Shown: piece by piece, positions 3,201 through 23,938 of the stretch
Layout of the letters: each line of letters opens with the position of its first letter
Position numbering within the stretch: position 1 is the stretch's first letter
Source of the DNA: a virus
Virus record (IMG/VR): IMGVR_UViG_3300031963_000892
Coordinates: 1-24,531 of that record
DNA: 24,531 nt
Direction: 5' to 3' (one strand)
Position numbers and translations under genes: made by a program
The notes under the pieces: generated by a model
What the model saw: only the letters and a program-made list of their open reading frames with translations
What the model was told of the DNA's origin: nothing
Databases searched by the model: none

Positions 3201-4112
3201 ATGGCAATTTCACGCGCACAGCTTCTGAAGGAGCTTCTGCCCGGCCTCAACGCCCTGTTCGGCCTTGAGTACGCCCGTTACGGTGAAGAGCATAAGGAGA
3301 TTTTCGAAACCGAAAGCTCCGAGCGTTCGTTCGAAGAAGAAACCAAGCTGTCGGGCTTCTCGGCTGCTCCGGTTAAGAACGAAGGCAGTGCCATCGCGTA
3401 CGACAACGCACAGGAAGTCTTCACGGCTCGCTACAACCATGAGACGATTGCCCTCGGGTTCTCGCTCACGGAAGAAGCCATCGAAGACAACCTGTACGAC
3501 AGCCTGTCGTCGCGGTACACCAAGGCCCTCGCCCGTGCGATGGCTTACACCAAGCAGACCAAGGCTGCTGCGGTCCTGAACAACGGCTTCGACACCGACT
3601 ACCCCGGTGGCGACGGACAGCCGCTGTTCTCGAACGCTCACCCGCTGGTCTCGGGTGGCACCAACTCGAACGTCCCCAGCACCCCGGCTGACCTGAACGA
3701 AACGTCGCTTGAAGCGGCTGTCATTCAGATCGCTGGCTGGACCGACGAACGTGGCCTGCTGATCGCAGCCAAGCCGCGCAAGCTGGTGGTCCCGCCGAGC
3801 CTGATGTTCGTTGCTACTCGTCTGCTCGAAACCGAACTGCGCGTTTCGACTGCCGACAACGACATCAACGCTCTGAAGTCGAACGGCTCGATCCCGGAAG
3901 GCTACACCGTCAACCACTTCCTGACCGACACGGATGCGTGGTTCCTGACCACCGATGTGCCGAACGGTCTGAAGCACTTCGTTCGTACGCCGATGGCTAC
4001 GTCGATGGACGGTGACTTCGACACCGGGAACGTCCGCTACAAGGCTCGCGAGCGTTACTCGTTCGGCTGGTCTGACCCGCTGGGCATGTACGGTTCCGAA
4101 GGCGCTGCCTAA
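3201..4112 (+). CDS. Major capsid protein (Mu gpT-like, HK97 fold)
   Basis: This 303-residue protein is close to the length of Mu gpT (about 305). It starts with a helical N-arm (SRAQLLKELLPGLNALFGLEY), has ERSFEEETKLSGF, and a long helix around residues 80-125 with GFSLTEEAIEDNLYDSLSSR like the capsid spine helix. It carries LFSNAHPLVSGGT, a hallmark of the Mu-like major head subunit family, and KPRKLVVPPSLMFVA. The C-terminus YKARERYSFGWSDPLGMYGS also fits that family. It forms the icosahedral shell lattice. The gene is preceded by GGAG and followed directly by a strong terminator, as expected for the most highly expressed head gene. No cleavable N-terminal delta domain or protease gene is seen in the window, consistent with use of a separate scaffold. 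Confidence 0.9.
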   Translation: MAISRAQLLKELLPGLNALFGLEYARYGEEHKEIFETESSERSFEEETKLSGFSAAPVKNEGSAIAYDNAQEVFTARYNHETIALGFSLTEEAIEDNLYDSLSSRYTKALARAMAYTKQTKAAAVLNNGFDTDYPGGDGQPLFSNAHPLVSGGTNSNVPSTPADLNETSLEAAVIQIAGWTDERGLLIAAKPRKLVVPPSLMFVATRLLETELRVSTADNDINALKSNGSIPEGYTVNHFLTDTDAWFLTTDVPNGLKHFVRTPMATSMDGDFDTGNVRYKARERYSFGWSDPLGMYGSEGAA

Positions 4113-4264: not shown

Positions 4265-4534
4265 ATGGCTCGCACTACTTTTTCGGGTCCGGTTGCTTCG
4301 GACAATGGCTTTGAAGGCACCTTCACCGGCAACGTGGTCGGCAATGTCACCGGCAACGTGACCGGCGCTGTCACTCTCCCGACCTACACCGTCGCTGGTG
4401 TCCCCTCGGCCTCGGCCAACGCTCGCACGCTGATCTACGTCTCGAACGGCGCTGCTGGCAGCCCGGTTGTGGCTTTCTCGAACGGCACGAACTGGCTCCG
4501 CTGCGATACGCTTGCTGCCATCAGCGCCACCTAA
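4265..4534 (+). CDS. Small beta-rich virion protein (putative decoration/fibre)
   Basis: This 89-residue protein starts MARTTFSGPVASDNGFEGTF, followed by short Gly-Asn-Val repeats (GNVVGNVTGNVTGAV). The C-terminal half, with SANARTLIYVSNGAAGSP and FSNGTNWLRCD, resembles a recurring module in phage surface proteins. The ATG at 4265 is preceded by a perfect AGGAGG at 4253-4258 with 6 nt spacing. An upstream in-frame GTG at 4241 has no such signal and was rejected. It is the first gene after the capsid terminator. A surface-exposed structural role is inferred from composition and neighbours; no enzymatic motif is seen. Confidence 0.65.
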   Translation: MARTTFSGPVASDNGFEGTFTGNVVGNVTGNVTGAVTLPTYTVAGVPSASANARTLIYVSNGAAGSPVVAFSNGTNWLRCDTLAAISAT

Positions 4535-4881: not shown

Positions 4882-5172
4882 ATGGCAAAAATCGACAAGG
4901 TGCTTGGCTCGATCTCCCCGCTGTACGGGGCGGTTAGCGGCCAAGGGTTGTTTAGCGGGTTGCGCAATCTTAGTCCGGCTCTGTTGGCGGTTGATGCGAT
5001 CAAGGGCAAGAAGGGCAAAAAGCCCGGTATGGTTGCCGAAGCTGCGGAAGTCGAAACTGGCGCTGGTATGAAGCGCGGCGGCAAGGTCAAGAAGTACGCC
5101 AAGGGCGGCTCGGCCTCGAAGCGCGCCGACGGCTGCTGCAAGAAGGGCAAGACCAAGGGGAAGATGGTCTGA
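4882..5172 (+). CDS. Basic Lys/Gly-rich phage protein with RADG..KKGKTKGKM C-terminal module
   Basis: This 96-residue protein has AAGGAGG (4870-4876) placing the start at ATG 4882, not at any upstream in-frame ATG. Residues 1-40 are mildly hydrophobic and helix-prone (LFSGLRNLSPALLAVDAI). The rest is strongly basic: KGKKGKKPG, MKRGGKVKKYAKGGSAS, and the end KRADGCCKKGKTKGKMV. The last 25 codons before the final Val are nearly identical to a segment of the gene at 5681-6073 (22 of 25 residues). Such short basic proteins with a KGGS..RADG...KGKTKG tail recur in aquatic phages, often several per genome. No function is known to me. Packaged DNA-binding or internal protein is a hypothesis based on charge. 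Two adjacent cysteines (CC) in the module are a difference from the second copy. The stop overlaps the next ATG by 1 nt. Confidence 0.75.
   Translation: MAKIDKVLGSISPLYGAVSGQGLFSGLRNLSPALLAVDAIKGKKGKKPGMVAEAAEVETGAGMKRGGKVKKYAKGGSASKRADGCCKKGKTKGKMV
5092..5166 (+). repeat. 25-codon module, copy 1
   Basis: This 75-nt segment encodes KYAKGGSASKRADGCCKKGK followed by TKGKM. It matches 5972-6046 codon for codon in length and at 22 of 25 residues, with several synonymous differences. The synonymous changes suggest an older duplication or recombination kept under protein-level selection. Confidence 0.85.
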
Positions 5173-5432
5173 TGGCTAAGTCTCCTGCTTGGACCCGGAA
5201 GGAAGGTAAGAACCCCAAGGGTGGCCTCAACGCCAAAGGGCGTGCGTCGGCCAAGAAGCAGGGGATGAACCTCAAGCCACCGGCACCCAATCCGAAAACG
5301 AAGAAAGACGCTTCCCGTCGGAAGTCCTTCTGCTCGCGCATGAAGGGGATGAAGTCGAAGCTGACGTCCTCGAAAACCGCAAACGATCCGAACAGCCGGA
5401 TCAACAAGTCATTGAGGGCGTGGAACTGCTAA
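5172..5432 (+). CDS. Small basic conserved phage protein (GGLNAKGRAS family)
   Basis: This 86-residue, highly basic protein has the N-terminal block SPAWTRKEGKNPKGGLNAKG followed by RASAKKQGMNLK, then SRRKSFCSRMKGMKSKLTSS and RINKSLRAWNC. The order 'PAW.RKEGKNP.GGLN..GR.S ... RR.SFCARM.GMK ... SLRAW' is a recognisable conserved family of phage proteins, which I believe is catalogued as a DUF (possibly DUF6321; not verifiable here). It has no membrane segment. Its ATG shares 1 nt with the preceding stop, indicating translational coupling. The charge suggests nucleic-acid or capsid-interior association, but this is not shown. Confidence 0.78.
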   Translation: MAKSPAWTRKEGKNPKGGLNAKGRASAKKQGMNLKPPAPNPKTKKDASRRKSFCSRMKGMKSKLTSSKTANDPNSRINKSLRAWNC

Positions 5433-5433
5433 G

Positions 5434-5676
5434 ATGGAAATGATGGTATGGAACGTCATTTTGAGCGGTATCGTGGCGGTTATGGGCTTCCTCATTAAAG
5501 GGAAGTTCGACGAGTTGGACAGGATCACGATCCTGCTCAACAAGACCCGTGAGGAGATCGCACGAGACCATGTTACTCGGGCCGAGATGAATATCACGGT
5601 CGATAAACTGGGGGAGCGGTTCGACAGCGCCTTCAAGCGCCTTGAGGACAAGCTCGACGAGTTCAGAAAGGGCTGA
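5434..5676 (+). CDS. Membrane-anchored coiled-coil protein
   Basis: This 80-residue protein has a hydrophobic N-terminal segment, VWNVILSGIVAVMGFLIKG (about residues 5-23), that fits one transmembrane helix. An amphipathic heptad-like region with EELDRITILLNKTREEIARD-type spacing follows, then THRAEMN-like residues and a second coiled-coil stretch ending FKRLEDKLDEFRKG. The RITILLNKTREEIA..HVT.AEM block is conserved in small proteins of aquatic phages. The architecture is reminiscent of XhlA-type or spanin-like accessory proteins, but the sequence does not establish a lysis role, and the endolysin is 9 kb away. The start could also be ATG 5440 or 5443, since there is no strong ribosome-binding site for 5434. 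Confidence 0.7.
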   Translation: MEMMVWNVILSGIVAVMGFLIKGKFDELDRITILLNKTREEIARDHVTRAEMNITVDKLGERFDSAFKRLEDKLDEFRKG

Positions 5677-5680
5677 TGAG

Positions 5681-6073
5681 ATGAAGAGCAAAAAGTTTGG
5701 TTCCGGTGGCCCCACGGCCAAGCCCAAGGCGAGCGATCCGCGCATGCGTGAACCGATCACTGGGGGTCCCGACACCGTGCCGCTGACCCCGGAGCGCAAG
5801 AAGTTCCTCGAAGAGATGCGGCGTCGTAACGCCGAAGCGGCCAAGGACGCCAGCAAGGCGGCGAAGAAGGCCACCCCCTACGCCAAAGGAGGCAAGACGA
5901 TGAAGAAGGCAACCAAGGCCGGTAAGGCCATGATGAACAAGTCGGCTGACGCCAAGGGCCGTGCGATGCCGAAGTACGCCAAGGGCGGCTCGGCTTCGGC
6001 TCGTGCTGACGGCATCGCCAAGAAGGGTAAGACCAAGGGCAAGATGCTCGCTGGCGGCGGGAAGTGCATGTAA
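5681..6073 (+). CDS. Basic Lys/Ala-rich protein carrying a second RADG module
   Basis: This 130-residue protein has GAAAGGG (5666-5672) supporting the ATG at 5681; an in-frame TTG further upstream was rejected. Residues 1-30 are Gly/Pro/Lys-rich, then TPERKKFLEEMRRRNAEAAK is a charged helix. The remainder is Ala/Lys-rich and histone-H1-like in composition (DASKAAKKATPYAKGGKTMK, KATKAGKAMMNKSADAKGRA). It ends with the shared KYAKGGSASARADGIAKKGK module and a short LAGGGKCM tail. Two YAKGG motifs and one AGGGK occur in this protein alone. The overall charge suggests DNA binding or neutralisation. Its stop TAA overlaps the next ATG (TAATG). Confidence 0.75.
   Translation: MKSKKFGSGGPTAKPKASDPRMREPITGGPDTVPLTPERKKFLEEMRRRNAEAAKDASKAAKKATPYAKGGKTMKKATKAGKAMMNKSADAKGRAMPKYAKGGSASARADGIAKKGKTKGKMLAGGGKCM
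5972..6046 (+). repeat. 25-codon module, copy 2
   Basis: This is the second copy of the module at 5092-5166, encoding KYAKGGSASARADGIAKKGK plus TKGKM. The three residue differences from copy 1 are Lys to Ala, Cys to Ile and Cys to Ala. In copy 1 the module ends one residue before the stop. Here an 8-residue tail follows. Confidence 0.85.
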
Positions 6074-6360
6074 TGCGCGCTTCGCGGGGTATGGGCGACA
6101 TCCGGGCGTCGAAGATGCCGGGGAAGAAGATCATCCGTCGGAAGGACAACCCCGACGATGTGGCCATGTACGCCAAAGGCGGTAAGCTGGACATCAAGAA
6201 GGCCATTAAGAAGCCCGGTGCCCTGCGCGCCGCGCTCGGCGTCAAGAAGGGGCAAAAAATCCCCGCCAAGACGCTCGCCAAGGCGGCAAAGGCTCCCGGC
6301 AAACTGGGCCAGCGTGCCCGGTTTGCGCAGGTCTTGAAGGGCTTCAAGAAGGGGAAGTAA
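6073..6360 (+). CDS. Basic phage protein with YAKGGK and KIPAKTLAKAAKAPGKLGQR
   Basis: This 95-residue protein starts at an ATG sharing 1 nt with the previous stop; a GTG 9 nt upstream is in frame but less likely. It begins RASRGMGDIRASKMPGKKII, then RRKDNPDDVAMYAKGGK and LDIKKAIKKPGALRAALGVK. It ends KKGQKIPAKTLAKAAKAPGK followed by LGQRARFAQVLKGFKKGK. The 'LHK.LGV..G.KIPA..LAKA.KA.GKLG.RA..A..LK' C-terminal region is a recognisable conserved domain of small phage proteins with unknown function. It is strongly basic and soluble. It carries the (M/Y)YAKGGK motif shared with its neighbours, suggesting they belong to one functional set. Confidence 0.75.
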   Translation: MRASRGMGDIRASKMPGKKIIRRKDNPDDVAMYAKGGKLDIKKAIKKPGALRAALGVKKGQKIPAKTLAKAAKAPGKLGQRARFAQVLKGFKKGK

Positions 6361-6361
6361 G

Positions 6362-6757
6362 GTGGCGCGGACAGACGAGGGCAAGTGGAAGCGCATTGTC
6401 GCCGCCGTGAAGGCCAGCGACAAAGGCGGCAAGCCCGGCCAGTGGTCTGCCCGCAAAGCCCAGCTTGCGACCCAACGGTACAAGAAGTCCGGGGGCGGAT
6501 ACTCCGGCCCCAAGACCAAGGCCCAGCAATCGCTGTCCAAGTGGACGAAGGAAGAGTGGGGTACCAAGTCCGGTAAACCCTCAACCCAAGGCCCCAAGGC
6601 GACCGGGGAGCGATACCTCCCGAAGAAAGCGCGACAGGCACTGACTTCTTCCGAATACGCTGCTACAACGAAGGCCAAGCGAGAAGGCATGGCTAAGGGC
6701 AAGCAGTTCGTGAAGCAGCCCAAGACCATCGCCAAAAAGACGGCGAGATACAGATGA
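6362..6757 (+). CDS. Conserved basic phage protein (GKPGQWSARKAQLAT / WTKEEWGTKSGKPS family)
   Basis: This 131-residue protein is read from GTG at 6362, with GAAGGGG (6348-6354) upstream. The ordered motifs are KWKRIVAAVKASDKGGKPGQ, WSARKAQLATQRYKKSGGGY, LSKWTKEEWGTKSGKPSTQG, GERYLPKKARQALTSSEYAA and TTKAKREGMAKGKQFVKQP. This set matches a widespread small-protein family of phages and large viruses that I believe is DUF5872 (number from memory, unverified). No catalytic residues are obvious. The conserved Trp and basic residues could serve DNA or capsid contacts. It overlaps the next gene by 4 nt (ATGA), so it is probably co-translated with the adaptor. Confidence 0.8.
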   Translation: MARTDEGKWKRIVAAVKASDKGGKPGQWSARKAQLATQRYKKSGGGYSGPKTKAQQSLSKWTKEEWGTKSGKPSTQGPKATGERYLPKKARQALTSSEYAATTKAKREGMAKGKQFVKQPKTIAKKTARYR

Positions 6758-7464
6758 CCACGAGCGGCACCACTACCTTCAACATGAACCTCAACGAGCT
6801 TGTTGAGGAAGCGTTCGAGCGTTGCGGTGCCGAGCTTCGTACTGGCTACGACTTGCGCACTGCCCGGCGCAGCCTCAACCTCCTGACGATTGAGTGGGCT
6901 AACCGGGGCATCAACCTATGGACTATCGAACAGGGGAGTATCCCGTTGGTGCAGGGACAGATCACCTACGATCTACCTGCGGATACCATTGACCTGATCG
7001 ACCACGTGATCCGCACCCAGACCGGGCAGGCGCAAACCGACATCAACATCAGCCGGATCAGTGTCGATACCTACTCGACGATCCCGAACAAGAATGCGCA
7101 GGGTCGCCCGATCCAAGTCTGGATCAACCGGCAGTCGGGTGCGAATTACCCGGTGACCGGCGTGCGGGAGCCGCAGATCAACGTCTGGCCCGCGCCGGAA
7201 CAGAGCAACTACTACACCTTCGTCTACTGGCGGCTCCGACGCATCCAAGACGCTGGCAACGGCGTCACGACGCAGGACATTCCATTCCGCTTCCTTCCGT
7301 GCATGGTGGCTGGTCTGGCCTATCACCTGTCCAAGAAGGTGCCGGGCGGGCTGGAGCGCACCATGATGCTCAAGAGCGAATACGAAGAACTCTGGCAGCA
7401 GGCTGCAGACGAGGACCGTGAAAAGGCCCCGCTCCGCATCGCCCCGCGTCAGATGTTCTACTAG
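6754..7464 (+). CDS. Head-to-tail adaptor protein (gp11/gp4-like), first of two
   Basis: This 236-residue protein has a helical N-terminus (MNLNELVEEAFERCGAELRT) with RTARRSLNLLTIEWANRGIN, followed by a beta-rich middle (WTIEQGSIPLVQGQITYDLP, INVWPAPEQ, YYTFVYWRLRRIQD). The C-terminal helix region has PFRFLPCMVAGLAYHLSKKV and LKSEYEELWQQAADEDRE. This helix-beta-helix plan, with 'A...LN.L...W...G..LW....', is typical of T7 gp11/P22 gp4-like adaptors that sit under the portal and complete the connector of short-tailed phages. It acts in the virion at the portal-tail junction. A second protein of the same architecture is encoded at 8220-8900. Confidence 0.75.
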   Translation: MTTSGTTTFNMNLNELVEEAFERCGAELRTGYDLRTARRSLNLLTIEWANRGINLWTIEQGSIPLVQGQITYDLPADTIDLIDHVIRTQTGQAQTDINISRISVDTYSTIPNKNAQGRPIQVWINRQSGANYPVTGVREPQINVWPAPEQSNYYTFVYWRLRRIQDAGNGVTTQDIPFRFLPCMVAGLAYHLSKKVPGGLERTMMLKSEYEELWQQAADEDREKAPLRIAPRQMFY

Positions 7465-7472
7465 GAGGTGCG

Positions 7473-7865
7473 ATGCCTAATCGGTTCGCCTCTGGCAAAT
7501 GGGCGATCTCGCAGTGCGACCGCTGCGGGTTCCGTTACAAGCTCAAGCAGCTTCGGCGTCTCGTCATCAAGACGAAGAACGTCAACATCCTCGTGTGCCC
7601 AACCTGCTGGGAACCGGATCAACCACAGCTTCAGCTTGGTATGTACCCGGTCGATGACCCACAGGCGCTGCGCAATCCGCGTCCCGACACGACCTACTTC
7701 CAGTCTGGCTTGATGGCCGACGGGTCTGTCGGTGAAGGTAGCCGGATCATTCAGTGGGGTTGGAACCCCGTAGGACTAAACGATCCTTTGGGTTTATCTG
7801 GACTTCCAAATACGCTACTAGGAGTTGGTGAAGTAGGCACGGTGACTGTGCAGACGGAGGAATGA
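7473..7865 (+). CDS. Zinc-ribbon phage protein (CDRCGF...CPTCWEPDQPQLQ family)
   Basis: This 130-residue protein has two CxxC pairs, C15-C18 (CDRCGF) and C42-C45 (CPTCW), forming a probable zinc ribbon. The conserved stretch WEPDQPQLQLGMYPVDDPQA then LRNPRPD follows. The C-terminal ~70 residues are Gly/Pro/Asn-rich and look flexible. This exact arrangement recurs in aquatic podovirus-like phages near adaptor genes, implying a structural role rather than transcription control; that is inference from neighbourhood. A strong TAGGAGGTG precedes the ATG. The stop overlaps a dispensable ATG of the next gene. Confidence 0.75.
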   Translation: MPNRFASGKWAISQCDRCGFRYKLKQLRRLVIKTKNVNILVCPTCWEPDQPQLQLGMYPVDDPQALRNPRPDTTYFQSGLMADGSVGEGSRIIQWGWNPVGLNDPLGLSGLPNTLLGVGEVGTVTVQTEE

Positions 7866-7867
7866 CG

Positions 7868-8074
7868 ATGGATAAGAAGGACCTCAAGCAAGACAAGAAA
7901 ATGGTGGCCGCTGCGGTGCACAAGCACGAGCGCGCCAAGCATAAGGGTCAGCCGCTGACCAAGATGGCCAAGGGCGGCAAGACCAATGCCCAGATGAAGG
8001 CGATGGGCCGTAATCTGGCGAAGGTCGCCAACCAGAAGAAGTCGGTGCGCGCTGTGCCGAAGAAGGGCATCTGA
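7868..8074 (+). CDS. Basic phage protein (MDKKDLKQDKKMV..AVHKHE family) with MAKGGKT motif
   Basis: This 68-residue protein is Lys/His-rich: DKKDLKQDKKMVAAAVHKHE, then KMAKGGKTNAQMKAMGRNLA and KVANQKKSVRAVPKKGI. The 'DLKQDK..IA.AVHKHE ... K.GGKT...MK..GRN.AKV.NQK' pattern is a common small phage protein family of unknown function. GGAGG (7856-7860) favours ATG 7868 (7 nt spacing) over the overlapping ATG at 7862. The AKGGK motif ties it to the basic proteins at 4882-6360. No membrane segment or enzyme signature is present. Confidence 0.75.
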   Translation: MDKKDLKQDKKMVAAAVHKHERAKHKGQPLTKMAKGGKTNAQMKAMGRNLAKVANQKKSVRAVPKKGI

Positions 8075-8075
8075 C

Positions 8076-8216
8076 ATGGACTACAAGCCCAAGATCGTGC
8101 CGATTGTGCCGAACAACAACGGCTATCCGAACAAGGTTGCCAACACCCAGACCGTGAAAACTCGCGGAACCGGCGCGGCTACCAAGGGGACGAATAGCAG
8201 CAAGAAGCTGGGGTAA
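8076..8216 (+). CDS. 46-residue basic phage peptide (TRGTGAATKG family)
   Basis: This short gene begins MDYKPKIVPIVPNNNGYPNK, continues VANTQTVKTRGTGAATKG, and ends TNSSKKLG. The C-terminal TRGTGAATKG..S.K is a recognisable motif of very short, basic proteins in phages of this kind. It starts 1 nt after the preceding stop and ends 3 nt before the next start, so it is embedded in the operon without room for other signals. It belongs to the same basic-protein group by composition, but it lacks the AKGG motif. Function unknown. Confidence 0.7.
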   Translation: MDYKPKIVPIVPNNNGYPNKVANTQTVKTRGTGAATKGTNSSKKLG

Positions 8217-21808: not shown

Positions 21809-23938
21809 ATGCAAAACAACCAGCTAATGCCCGCGCAGCCTCAATTGGGCACACCTATCCCCGGAACGACGGGTGGCCTCCCGGCACAGGGGGGTCTTTC
21901 TGTTTTTGCCAGCCCGATGGCGCAGCAACTGCAGAGCCTTGGACGCGGCGACGACAAGATGCTCGTCCACATGACCCCGAACGAGGTGAACAGCCTGCAG
22001 GGTCTGGCTATGGCAACGGGGGGTTCGCTGACCATTAACCCTCATACCGGCCTCCCCGAAGCGGGCTGGCTGGGCAAGCTGCTGCCGACGATCCTTGGTG
22101 TTCTCGGCGCGGCAGTGGGTATCCCCACGTGGGCCATCGGCCTTGGCGGCACTGCTGTTGGTACTGCGGTGACCGGCGATCTTAGCAAGGGGCTTATGGC
22201 TGGCCTCGGTGCTTATGGTGGTGCCGGTCTGGGTAACGCCGTTGGTCTGGGCGGTTCTCTGTCAAAGAATGCGTTCGGTCTATTGGGCGAGAAGGCTGCT
22301 ACCGACGCCGCTACCAATGCTGCGGTCAACGCTGCCTCCAATGCTCCGGTTCCTCCGGCTACCCCGCCGGTTGCCCCGCCCCCTGTCGCTACCCCGCCTG
22401 TCGCTGCCCCACCTGCAGGTGCGCCGGGGTTGGCCGCTCCCGGACCGAGCGCGAAGTTTATGGAGGCATTTGCAGACATCGCACCTCCACCTCCGGTGTC
22501 CGCAGGTGCTGCTCCCAGTCTGGCCCAAAGCCTTACCGAAGCACAGACCGAACAGCTTCTCATGGGCATGCCGGGACCGCCTGTTGATCTCGTTCCTGAG
22601 GTACTGGGGGGAACCGCCACCGCTTCGACGTTTGCTCCTACCGCCGCAGGTCTTGCGGAGAGTACCGCAGCTAACGCCGCAAAGCCGGGCTTCCTCGGCG
22701 CGTTCAAGAATGCGACCAACATCAAGGGTACCGGCAATATCGGCGCTATCGCTGGTGGTCTCGGCGTTCTTAACAATATAAGCGAAGCCTTTGCTCCCAA
22801 ACTCCCGAAGTACGAGGAAGAGGAGCCGTATAAGTACGAAGGTCCGTATGTCCCGGTTCCGCGCACGGTGCGGATGCCGACTACCCCGGCGCGTGAGCGT
22901 GGCGGTCGTGAACACCTCTTCTTCGACAACCTGAACCCGGTCCCCGGCTACGTACCGTACAAGTCGCTGGGCATGGCCGAAGGGGGTAGGGTCCCCGCGC
23001 AGCGTCCGCGCATGGAGCGTAATTTTGGCTTCCGGTCGCAGGGTAATGCGATGATGCCTGCCCCGCAGGGTATGGGTAACATGCCGGGCGGTCTCAAGGG
23101 CGGCGCAATGATGCCTGCCCCGCAGGGTATGGGTAACATGCCGGGTGGTCTCAAGGGCGGCGCGCTCCAGCAACTGATGGCGCAGCGGAGTATGGGCGGC
23201 ATGCCGCAAGGTGCTATGCCTCCCCAGCGTATGATGCCTTCTCCGATGATGCGTGGGCGCGAGCGTGACCACGGCTTCCGAACCATGCCTGCCGCTCCCG
23301 TCGCTTCGGTACTGCCGCAGTCGATGGACGCTCCGTCGGTAATGATGCCGCAGCAGATGATGCCGCAGCGTATGATGCCGCAGCCGGTACCCGCAACGAT
23401 GCCGCCGCAGATGATGCCGCAGCCGGTACCCGCAACGATGCCGCCGCAGATGATGCCGCAGCCGGTACCCGCAATGATGCCGCCTCCGGCCCCTTCCAGC
23501 CCTCGCTTGGCTATGGATTTCGCTCCGGCGCTGTCGAACAACATGGGCTTCGCTCAGATCGAAATGCCCGGCATGAACCGTGGCGGCGAAGTGCCGTTGT
23601 CGGATGGAGCCTTTGTGCTGGATGCGCGCACGGTGTCGGAGATCGGCAACGGTAGCAGCAACGCTGGTAAGGAAGCCCTCGCTCGCATTGGTGGTCGTCC
23701 GATTGAAGGCCCCGGCGATGGGGTAAGTGATAGTGTCCCGGCCCGGATCGGTCGTGACCAGCCTGCCCGCGTGGCCCGCGATGAGGTGGTTGTACCGGCT
23801 GACGTCGTGCGCCGCATCGGCAAGGGCAGCCCCAAGCGCGGTGCCGACAAGCTCTACGACCTGATGAAGAAGGCGCACAAGGCGCGTAAGAAGGCCAAGC
23901 GTGGGCAGGATACCAAGCTGCGGAAGGGCCTTGCATGA
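21809..23938 (+). CDS. Large internal virion/DNA-ejection protein (putative)
   Basis: This protein is 709 residues from ATG 21809, chosen because AAGG (21799-21802) is 6 nt upstream; an in-frame TTG 33 nt earlier has no such site. Residues about 50-75 contain HMTPNEVNSLQGLAMATGGS and LTINPHTGLPEAGWLGKLLP. Then a long Gly/Ala-rich hydrophobic stretch (TILGVLGAAVGIPTWAIGLG, GLMAGLGAYGGAGLGNAVGL) could insert into membranes. A Pro/Ala linker, a Met/Pro/Gln-rich region with tandem repeats, and a conserved C-terminal domain follow (LSDGAFVLDARTVSEIGNGS, NAGKEALARIGGRPIEGPGD, GVSDSVPARIGRDQPARVAR, DEVVVPADVVRRIGKGSPKR). Phage internal core or ejection proteins often combine such features. The C-terminal domain is strongly conserved among aquatic phages. 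The ejection role is inferred. It overlaps the next gene by 4 nt (ATGA). Confidence 0.72.
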   Translation: MQNNQLMPAQPQLGTPIPGTTGGLPAQGGLSVFASPMAQQLQSLGRGDDKMLVHMTPNEVNSLQGLAMATGGSLTINPHTGLPEAGWLGKLLPTILGVLGAAVGIPTWAIGLGGTAVGTAVTGDLSKGLMAGLGAYGGAGLGNAVGLGGSLSKNAFGLLGEKAATDAATNAAVNAASNAPVPPATPPVAPPPVATPPVAAPPAGAPGLAAPGPSAKFMEAFADIAPPPPVSAGAAPSLAQSLTEAQTEQLLMGMPGPPVDLVPEVLGGTATASTFAPTAAGLAESTAANAAKPGFLGAFKNATNIKGTGNIGAIAGGLGVLNNISEAFAPKLPKYEEEEPYKYEGPYVPVPRTVRMPTTPARERGGREHLFFDNLNPVPGYVPYKSLGMAEGGRVPAQRPRMERNFGFRSQGNAMMPAPQGMGNMPGGLKGGAMMPAPQGMGNMPGGLKGGALQQLMAQRSMGGMPQGAMPPQRMMPSPMMRGRERDHGFRTMPAAPVASVLPQSMDAPSVMMPQQMMPQRMMPQPVPATMPPQMMPQPVPATMPPQMMPQPVPAMMPPPAPSSPRLAMDFAPALSNNMGFAQIEMPGMNRGGEVPLSDGAFVLDARTVSEIGNGSSNAGKEALARIGGRPIEGPGDGVSDSVPARIGRDQPARVARDEVVVPADVVRRIGKGSPKRGADKLYDLMKKAHKARKKAKRGQDTKLRKGLA
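23051..23164 (+). repeat. 57-nt tandem duplication (19 codons, two copies)
   Basis: Copies at 23051-23107 and 23108-23164 both encode MMPAPQGMGNMPGGLKGGA and are almost identical in DNA. They differ only at scattered third positions, so the duplication is recent or homogenised. It is in frame within the 709-residue protein. Confidence 0.9.
23372..23488 (+). repeat. 39-nt tandem triplication (13 codons, three copies)
   Basis: The copies start at 23372, 23411 and 23450. The first two encode MMPQPVPATMPPQ and the third MMPQPVPAMMPPP. A shorter MMPQ(Q/R) run precedes them. The region is Met/Pro/Gln-rich and probably disordered. Copy number is likely to vary between close relatives. Confidence 0.9.

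Follow-up and report, generated by a model that had tools for sequence, protein, structure and literature searches.

Why do two small proteins encoded behind the major capsid gene of a virus share almost the same 25 residues near their ends? The genes lie in IMG/VR virus record IMGVR_UViG_3300031963_000892, whose 24,531 bases make up the stretch analysed here (the window) and for which a search of INPHARED returned no near DNA relative. An initial annotation of these letters had described a set of tiny basic proteins at 4882–8216 that share the motif [YM]AKGG, two of them also sharing a duplicated 25-codon module (5092–5166 and 5972–6046). Shuffling bears this out: the two modules are identical at 22 of 25 residues, where the best ungapped 25-mer in 500 shuffles of both proteins reached 13, and [YM]AKGG occurs in four proteins (tagged protein 1, tagged protein 2, which has it twice, and the 6073–6360 and 7862–8074 proteins; Table 1), compared with an average of 0.029 proteins, and never more than 1, across 2,000 shuffles. 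The predominance of basic products also stands, with seven of the nine small open reading frames (ORFs) in the interval, adaptor excluded, encoding proteins of net charge +7 to +26; the other two are 5434–5676 (−1) and 7473–7865 (+1). The duplicated module is a C-terminal tag. Its conservation runs on past AKGG through the following 20 residues, at the C terminus, and AKGG itself fronts different tails. For these two reasons we rejected AKGG as the functional unit; it is a hinge, or junction, that precedes more than one kind of tail.

A search with tagged protein 2 retrieved many contigs that have only its last 25–35 residues in common, with matches at or near the protein end, and the tag has the consensus [YMF][AK]xGG..SASxRADG[IC]Ax[KR]GKT[KR]G[KR][MIF][VIC]-COOH. 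At 30 bits or more, 357 of 465 profile matches, a count that includes redundant loci in which the same contig was fetched twice, end within one residue of the protein end and most of the others 3–12 residues before it; a frequent extension beyond the tag ends in KGGxxC or similar. A second sample of at least 120 stretches was fetched with a DNA pattern covering RADG.A..GKT.G, and among the matches listed for its loci L168–L244, 86 of 111 end exactly three residues past the last Gly. Positions that the pattern leaves free are constant: among the matches listed, all 109 distinct tails have Ser two places before RADG and a Lys or Arg immediately preceding GKT. In 65 profile matches from loci retrieved by their capsid protein, G, G, T and G are invariant (65 of 65), K is present in 64 and D in 63. 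An ordinary low-complexity Lys/Gly artefact is ruled out by shuffles, in which none of 2,325 shuffled tagged proteins reached 15 bits, the highest scoring 9.9, and shuffled plus-strand ORFs scored at most 9.7. The string GxxxxGKT also matches the Walker A motif of P-loop NTPases, but it stands a few residues from the C terminus; we rejected a true P-loop because Lys is replaced by Arg in Pag-Yong1 and locus L334 and because none of 118 representatives of the tagged ORFs matched a domain in Pfam. The tag has no record in Pfam (the same 118 representatives), in the PDB, where a search with the tag profile gave GG matches only (E of 0.19 or worse), or in the literature searched, subscription papers being outside it.

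What precedes the tag is diverse. The 299 distinct tagged ORFs gave 297 bodies of at least 25 residues, which fall into 93 clusters: one of 141, one of 15 and, among the rest, 65 singletons. Clusters were built by single linkage of blastp matches at 1e-4, with low-complexity sequence masked and each ORF taken from its longest start, so bodies called 'different' are those without detectable similarity, and the cluster of 141 may be joined through common linker sequence. In eight near relatives, with capsid proteins 94–99% identical to that of the window, the adaptor, DUF5872-like and 6073 proteins are 68–93% identical where present, the adaptor at 82–93% in the six that possess it. The best match to tagged protein 1 spans 34–58% of its length in five of the eight and is at 39–53% identity in the others, and tagged protein 2 finds matches at 36–62%.

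The tag is also tied to one place and one capsid clade. The sample that establishes this, the best 80 of at least 600 loci, was retrieved with the capsid protein and not selected by tag; 7 of the 35 seeds of the tag profile came from it. Thirty-three of its loci extend 3 kb or more downstream; a threshold of 15 bits detects the tag in 33 of these, 20 bits in 31, 30 bits in 30 and 40 bits in 28. Across all 80 loci, 60 ORFs reach 30 bits, all on the capsid strand and starting 991–5,242 bases downstream; at 20 bits 1 of 73 ORFs lies on the opposite strand, and the sequence upstream of the capsid gene is free of matches at 15 bits. The pattern-fetched sample contributed at least 114 new loci, again including duplicates, of which 41 encode this capsid family upstream in the same orientation, whereas in 71 the upstream sequence is shorter than 5 kb and contains no capsid gene. 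One of the other two lacks a strong tag; the other, L252, has 5.7 kb upstream without a capsid gene, and because a cement-like gene is the first on its contig, the capsid gene probably falls outside it. Searched whole at E 0.01, 29 of 34 records match one to five times each, namely 27 of 28 long IMG/VR records (most of the 28 chosen through loci fetched by the tag or a tagged protein), one metagenome-assembled genome (MAG) and Pag-Yong1; the whole records of HTVC023P, CRP-902, QDWS535 and DSL-LC04 gave no tag match at this threshold. The capsid family is present in 27 of 31 records, the misses being three contigs with tags near an end and one MAG. Of 39 loci of the sister capsid clade around DSL-LC04 (65% identical) that reach 3 kb downstream, 1 has the tag, although small basic genes occupy the place of the tagged genes in this clade. 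A scan of genome contigs with one pattern returned four stretches, from three MAGs and one assembly titled 'uncultured bacterium'. Among named phages, tag-like tails were seen solely in Planktothrix phage Pag-Yong1, in diverged form (UMO75986.1), and in MinM2 and Pra-JY27 through a 100% identical protein. Against INPHARED, tblastn queries with window positions 5062–5169 and with one tagged protein found no match at E 10, in a search whose low-complexity filter may mask them.

Tags within a genome differ mainly by synonymous changes, and on this comparison the tag peptide is under purifying selection. In 35 within-genome pairs the proportions of synonymous (pS) and nonsynonymous (pN) differences are 0.64 and 0.22, a pN/pS of 0.35 that derives from profile matches, with seed bias remaining. 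The invariant residues are encoded by mixed codons, and copies of the 15-residue core in one genome agree at only 73% of DNA positions, in a set whose synonymous counts are biased by pattern selection.

Bodies and tails also recombine. In the window and many other loci, the body of the 7862–8074 protein (DKKDLKQDKK...VHKHE, hereafter HKHE) carries a second conserved tail, KTNxQMKxxGR[NG][LM]A[KR]xxNQ (GRN-NQ), and the same body bears the RADG tag in L010, L099, L101, L137 and others. The second tail is single-copy: of 24 capsid loci that have 5.5 kb downstream, 22 contain one and 2 lack it. Counted over loci with distinct second-tail proteins, leaving out those without a second-tail gene in view, the HKHE–RADG form is present in 7 of 18 loci with a stand-alone second tail, 1 of 71 in which that tail has another body and 0 of 57 that keep HKHE on it. 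An N-terminal module (MPSxSKKQHNFMAAVAHNPAFAKKAGVPQSVGKEF) similarly has varied endings: the RADG tag, degenerate GKT tails or, in L078 and L266, a DUF6321-like CARM...RWKC tail in place of the tag. By these alignments, tails are exchanged at the AKGG hinge. The C-terminal position, the many bodies, the constant place after the capsid gene, purifying selection and body/tail exchange strongly support the original suggestion that one tag is reused on unrelated proteins.

DUF6321 (PF19846), which is also encoded by a gene next to tagged protein 1, differs from the RADG tag in sequence and in its length of about 70 residues. It occurs in 536 of 50,697 INPHARED records, mainly cyanophages, and stands at or near the C terminus of longer PHROG profiles and of an S-B43 protein annotated 'structural protein'; a literature search found no paper naming it. 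In the sister clade, proteins encoded upstream and ending about 4 kb before the capsid gene end (for example in L357, L331, L290 and L294) have the GG-linked tails KKKDGNRPVKIY, RKDAKKKTKIY and SRGQGKVMRTKQTRIC, which suggests that these are further C-terminal labels.

An indirect line of sequence similarity points to the virion. Five of the 118 representatives match phrog_16759, phrog_22033 or phrog_25121, and the three viewed individually do so through the N-terminal module. This module, of about 45 residues, is common to L253, L129, many other loci and jumbo phages (phiKZ, GAP32, CBB, 201phi2-1 and EL). Over 42 residues it shares 76% identity with phiKZ gp165.1, and over 47 residues 56–58% with the starts of GAP32 gp317 and CBB gp322, both annotated as virion structural proteins; the likeness is limited to about the first 35–47 residues, with one profile alignment extending to position 99. 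According to the available text of PMC5259590, CBB_322, with which we equate RefSeq FDG95_gp322 by number, was detected in the phage particle by mass spectrometry (30 unique peptides, 43.6% coverage). Through this relative, tagged proteins may belong to the virion. A marginal match of one further representative, L156, to phrog_23735 (E 0.01) reaches the tag, the only one to do so among 20 tagged proteins viewed individually. The predicted structure of one tagged protein with the N-terminal module has a mean predicted local distance difference test (pLDDT) score of 59, with three helices in the module (block means 72–84), a low-confidence helix at 56–65 and a tag without structure; a PDB fold search with it gave a best E of 0.39, which is not usable.

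Two known systems share this arrangement. In phage T4, the internal proteins (IPI–III and Alt) are highly diverse small proteins that a common short terminal sequence loads into the prohead, as the available part of PMC3012670 describes; this capsid targeting sequence is N-terminal and cleaved by gp21 (PMC5694885, available part). The tag resembles it in arrangement, being likewise a short conserved sequence at one end of diverse proteins whose genes accompany head genes, and differs in being C-terminal. Encapsulin cargo-loading peptides are short, conserved and usually C-terminal, on different cargo encoded beside an HK97-fold shell gene (PMC7355545, available part). The tag is likewise a conserved C-terminal peptide on diverse proteins near a shell gene; unlike encapsulins, whose cargo according to the same text is enzymes in a cellular shell, it occurs in phage, is longer and is attached to small bodies without known domains.

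The tag's anatomy, with diverse bodies, a Gly hinge, a near-invariant end, a fixed place among head genes and one capsid clade, resembles that of a loading signal, and on this analogy the tag would load cargo into the procapsid. We therefore propose that the C-terminal tag of about 20 residues may be an address that loads variable small proteins into the head, a proposal for and against which we see the balance as even. During head assembly the tag would be held out on the Gly-rich hinge [YMF]AKGG and dock on a putative receptor that is constant in the capsid clade: the inner capsid face, the scaffold or the portal. Docking would load about one to five variable small proteins per genome into the procapsid, and these would travel with the DNA into the next host, where we infer that the bodies might, like T4 internal proteins, counter host defences or help to take over the cell. 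Two proteins specific to the tag clade are candidate partners: the 6073–6360 protein (Table 1) and the 65-residue 551–748 protein (44 of 48 tag-clade loci versus 0 of 38 sister loci). The portal C terminus was considered as a clade-specific receptor and rejected: positions 24–554 of the window seemed specific (43 of 43 versus 0 of 32) but are the divergent end of a portal present in both clades.

Several observations weigh against a loading role. The related capsids of HTVC023P, DSL-LC04 and CRP-902 (58–66% identical) come without the tag, so the capsid type has no need of it. The linkage was scored with a profile that draws seven seeds from the very loci examined, and one opposite-strand ORF there reaches 20 bits. 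The receptor is a postulated one, and the tag, being basic, could bind DNA instead. The link to CBB_322 runs through a module present in only some tagged proteins, virion proteomics of a tagged protein was not found, and the 118 representatives yielded no cargo domain in Pfam (0 of 118) or PADLOC (0 of 118). Tagged protein 2 retains a full-length relative (at least 96% of its length) at 42–62% in three of the eight near relatives, and the cement-like genes at 4268 (28–60%) and 4560 (37–74%) vary too, so variability alone is no mark of the tagged genes.

Other functions can be set against the same data. The initial annotation read the basic charge as a sign of an internal DNA-condensing set, and the tag could indeed be a nucleic-acid-binding peptide whose proteins coat or condense packaged DNA and enter the head with it, needing no protein receptor. 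The net charge of the tag region (+4 to +11), its invariant Gly-Lys-Thr turn, the regular spacing of Lys and Arg and the Lys-rich proteins of the window all fit this. Plain DNA binding would not lead one to expect 20 near-invariant residues that include D and T, nor the C-terminal place and restriction to one clade, and the bodies are not strongly and uniformly basic in the manner of protamines or histones: 35 of 297, and 13 of 93 cluster representatives, have a net charge of zero or below, with a median of +0.06 per residue. We consider this role unlikely, and the condensing reading weaker than that of a tag reused on unrelated proteins. Docking outside the head or at the neck, as minor decoration or connector proteins, would suit genes that sit between cement-like and adaptor genes, the variability of those cement-like neighbours and the annotation 'virion structural protein' of PHROGs with the same N-terminal module. 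The 93 body clusters, one to five copies per record and the low order predicted in a single model are at odds with such a part, for which the conserved adaptor offers the contrast, and we hold it to be decidedly unlikely.

It is more improbable that the tagged proteins stay out of the virion and act in the infected cell, the tag binding a host or phage factor such as a chaperone, protease adaptor or membrane. The lack of direct virion evidence and of recognisable cargo domains favours this, but co-localization with head genes and one capsid clade, and the virion relative of the N-terminal module, argue otherwise. A repeat that spreads between gene ends as a DNA-level recombination cassette, with the peptide unselected, deserves almost no credence. 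It would account for body/tail exchange and for several copies per genome, but codons vary freely at the invariant residues, core copies within a genome have drifted apart in DNA, and the low pN/pS was obtained without pattern selection; on codon drift we reject it.

The gene order of the window opens within a portal gene and runs through GroES, a scaffold-like gene, the major capsid protein, small genes, adaptor-like genes and long fibre-like proteins to an endolysin (features in Table 1). The capsid protein is 72% identical to those of Pag-Yong1, MinM2 and Pra-JY27, 66% to Pelagibacter phage HTVC023P, 65% to DSL-LC04 and 58% to Roseobacter phage CRP-902. MinM2 (OQ594354.1), Pag-Yong1 (OL906435.1) and Pra-JY27 (PP438419.1) are records that bear the names of different cyanobacterial hosts, yet each is 65,014 bases long; the single protein compared is 100% identical, and they are possibly one phage in three deposits. 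The available part of the HTVC023P-type genome paper (PMC9599517) contains nothing on tagged proteins. A SADAKGRAM stretch of tagged protein 2 also occurs in an untagged DSL-LC04 protein. The 7473–7865 protein has two CxxC pairs, is zinc-ribbon-like (weak Pfam matches) and occurs in both clades, in 24 of 26 loci of the tag clade and all 23 of the sister clade. The 709-residue protein at 21809–23938 is rich in Met, Pro and Gly, contains tandem repeats of the MMPQPVPATMPPQ type and matches nothing in PHROG or Pfam; its MAEGGRV string, noted in the initial annotation as similar to AKGG, is present, and it is not followed by a tag and gives no evidence for membership of the set.

Table 1 Features of the window that bear on the tag
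Feature	Position	Strand	Basis or remark
Major capsid protein, to whose gene the tag cluster is linked	3201..4112	+	phrog_371
Tagged protein 1, 96 aa, variable body and C-terminal tag	4882..5172	+	ORF, GGAGG upstream
KYAKGG hinge preceding the tag	5092..5109	+	
RADG-GKT tag core SASKRADGCCKKGKTKGKMV, reaching the stop codon	5110..5169	+	
DUF6321 protein	5172..5432	+	Pfam PF19846, E 6.8e-22
Tagged protein 2, 130 aa: basic body, inner YAKGG, tag, short AGGGKCM extension	5681..6073	+	
RADG-GKT tag core SASARADGIAKKGKTKGKML	5990..6049	+	
Untagged YAKGG protein, clade-specific, candidate partner	6073..6360	+	31/32 tag-clade loci versus 1/35 sister loci
Head–tail adaptor homologue, 3′ of the tagged genes	6754..7464	+	phrog_12985 (function unknown); similar genes of DSL-LC04 and Pag-Yong1 annotated adaptor
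HKHE-body protein with second conserved tail (GRN-NQ); same body with RADG tag in relatives	7862..8074	+	
GRN-NQ tail KTNAQMKAMGRNLAKVANQK, immediately after MAKGG	7979..8038	+	

A wider and more tentative possibility is that these phages have a modular cargo address system, in which interchangeable C-terminal labels (RADG-GKT, GRN-NQ and DUF6321-type) are exchanged at the AKGG hinge between fast-evolving bodies, each label would direct its protein to a different site in the particle, and a large uncultured phage clade would in this way bring a changing set of injected effectors into its hosts. If the tag is an encapsidation signal, it would offer a rule for finding injected proteins in uncultured phages, where bodies such as those of the 299 distinct tagged ORFs are unrecognizable by homology, and a new portable sequence with which foreign proteins could be brought into a phage capsid. 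It would then also be a C-terminal answer to the problem that T4 solved with an N-terminal targeting sequence.

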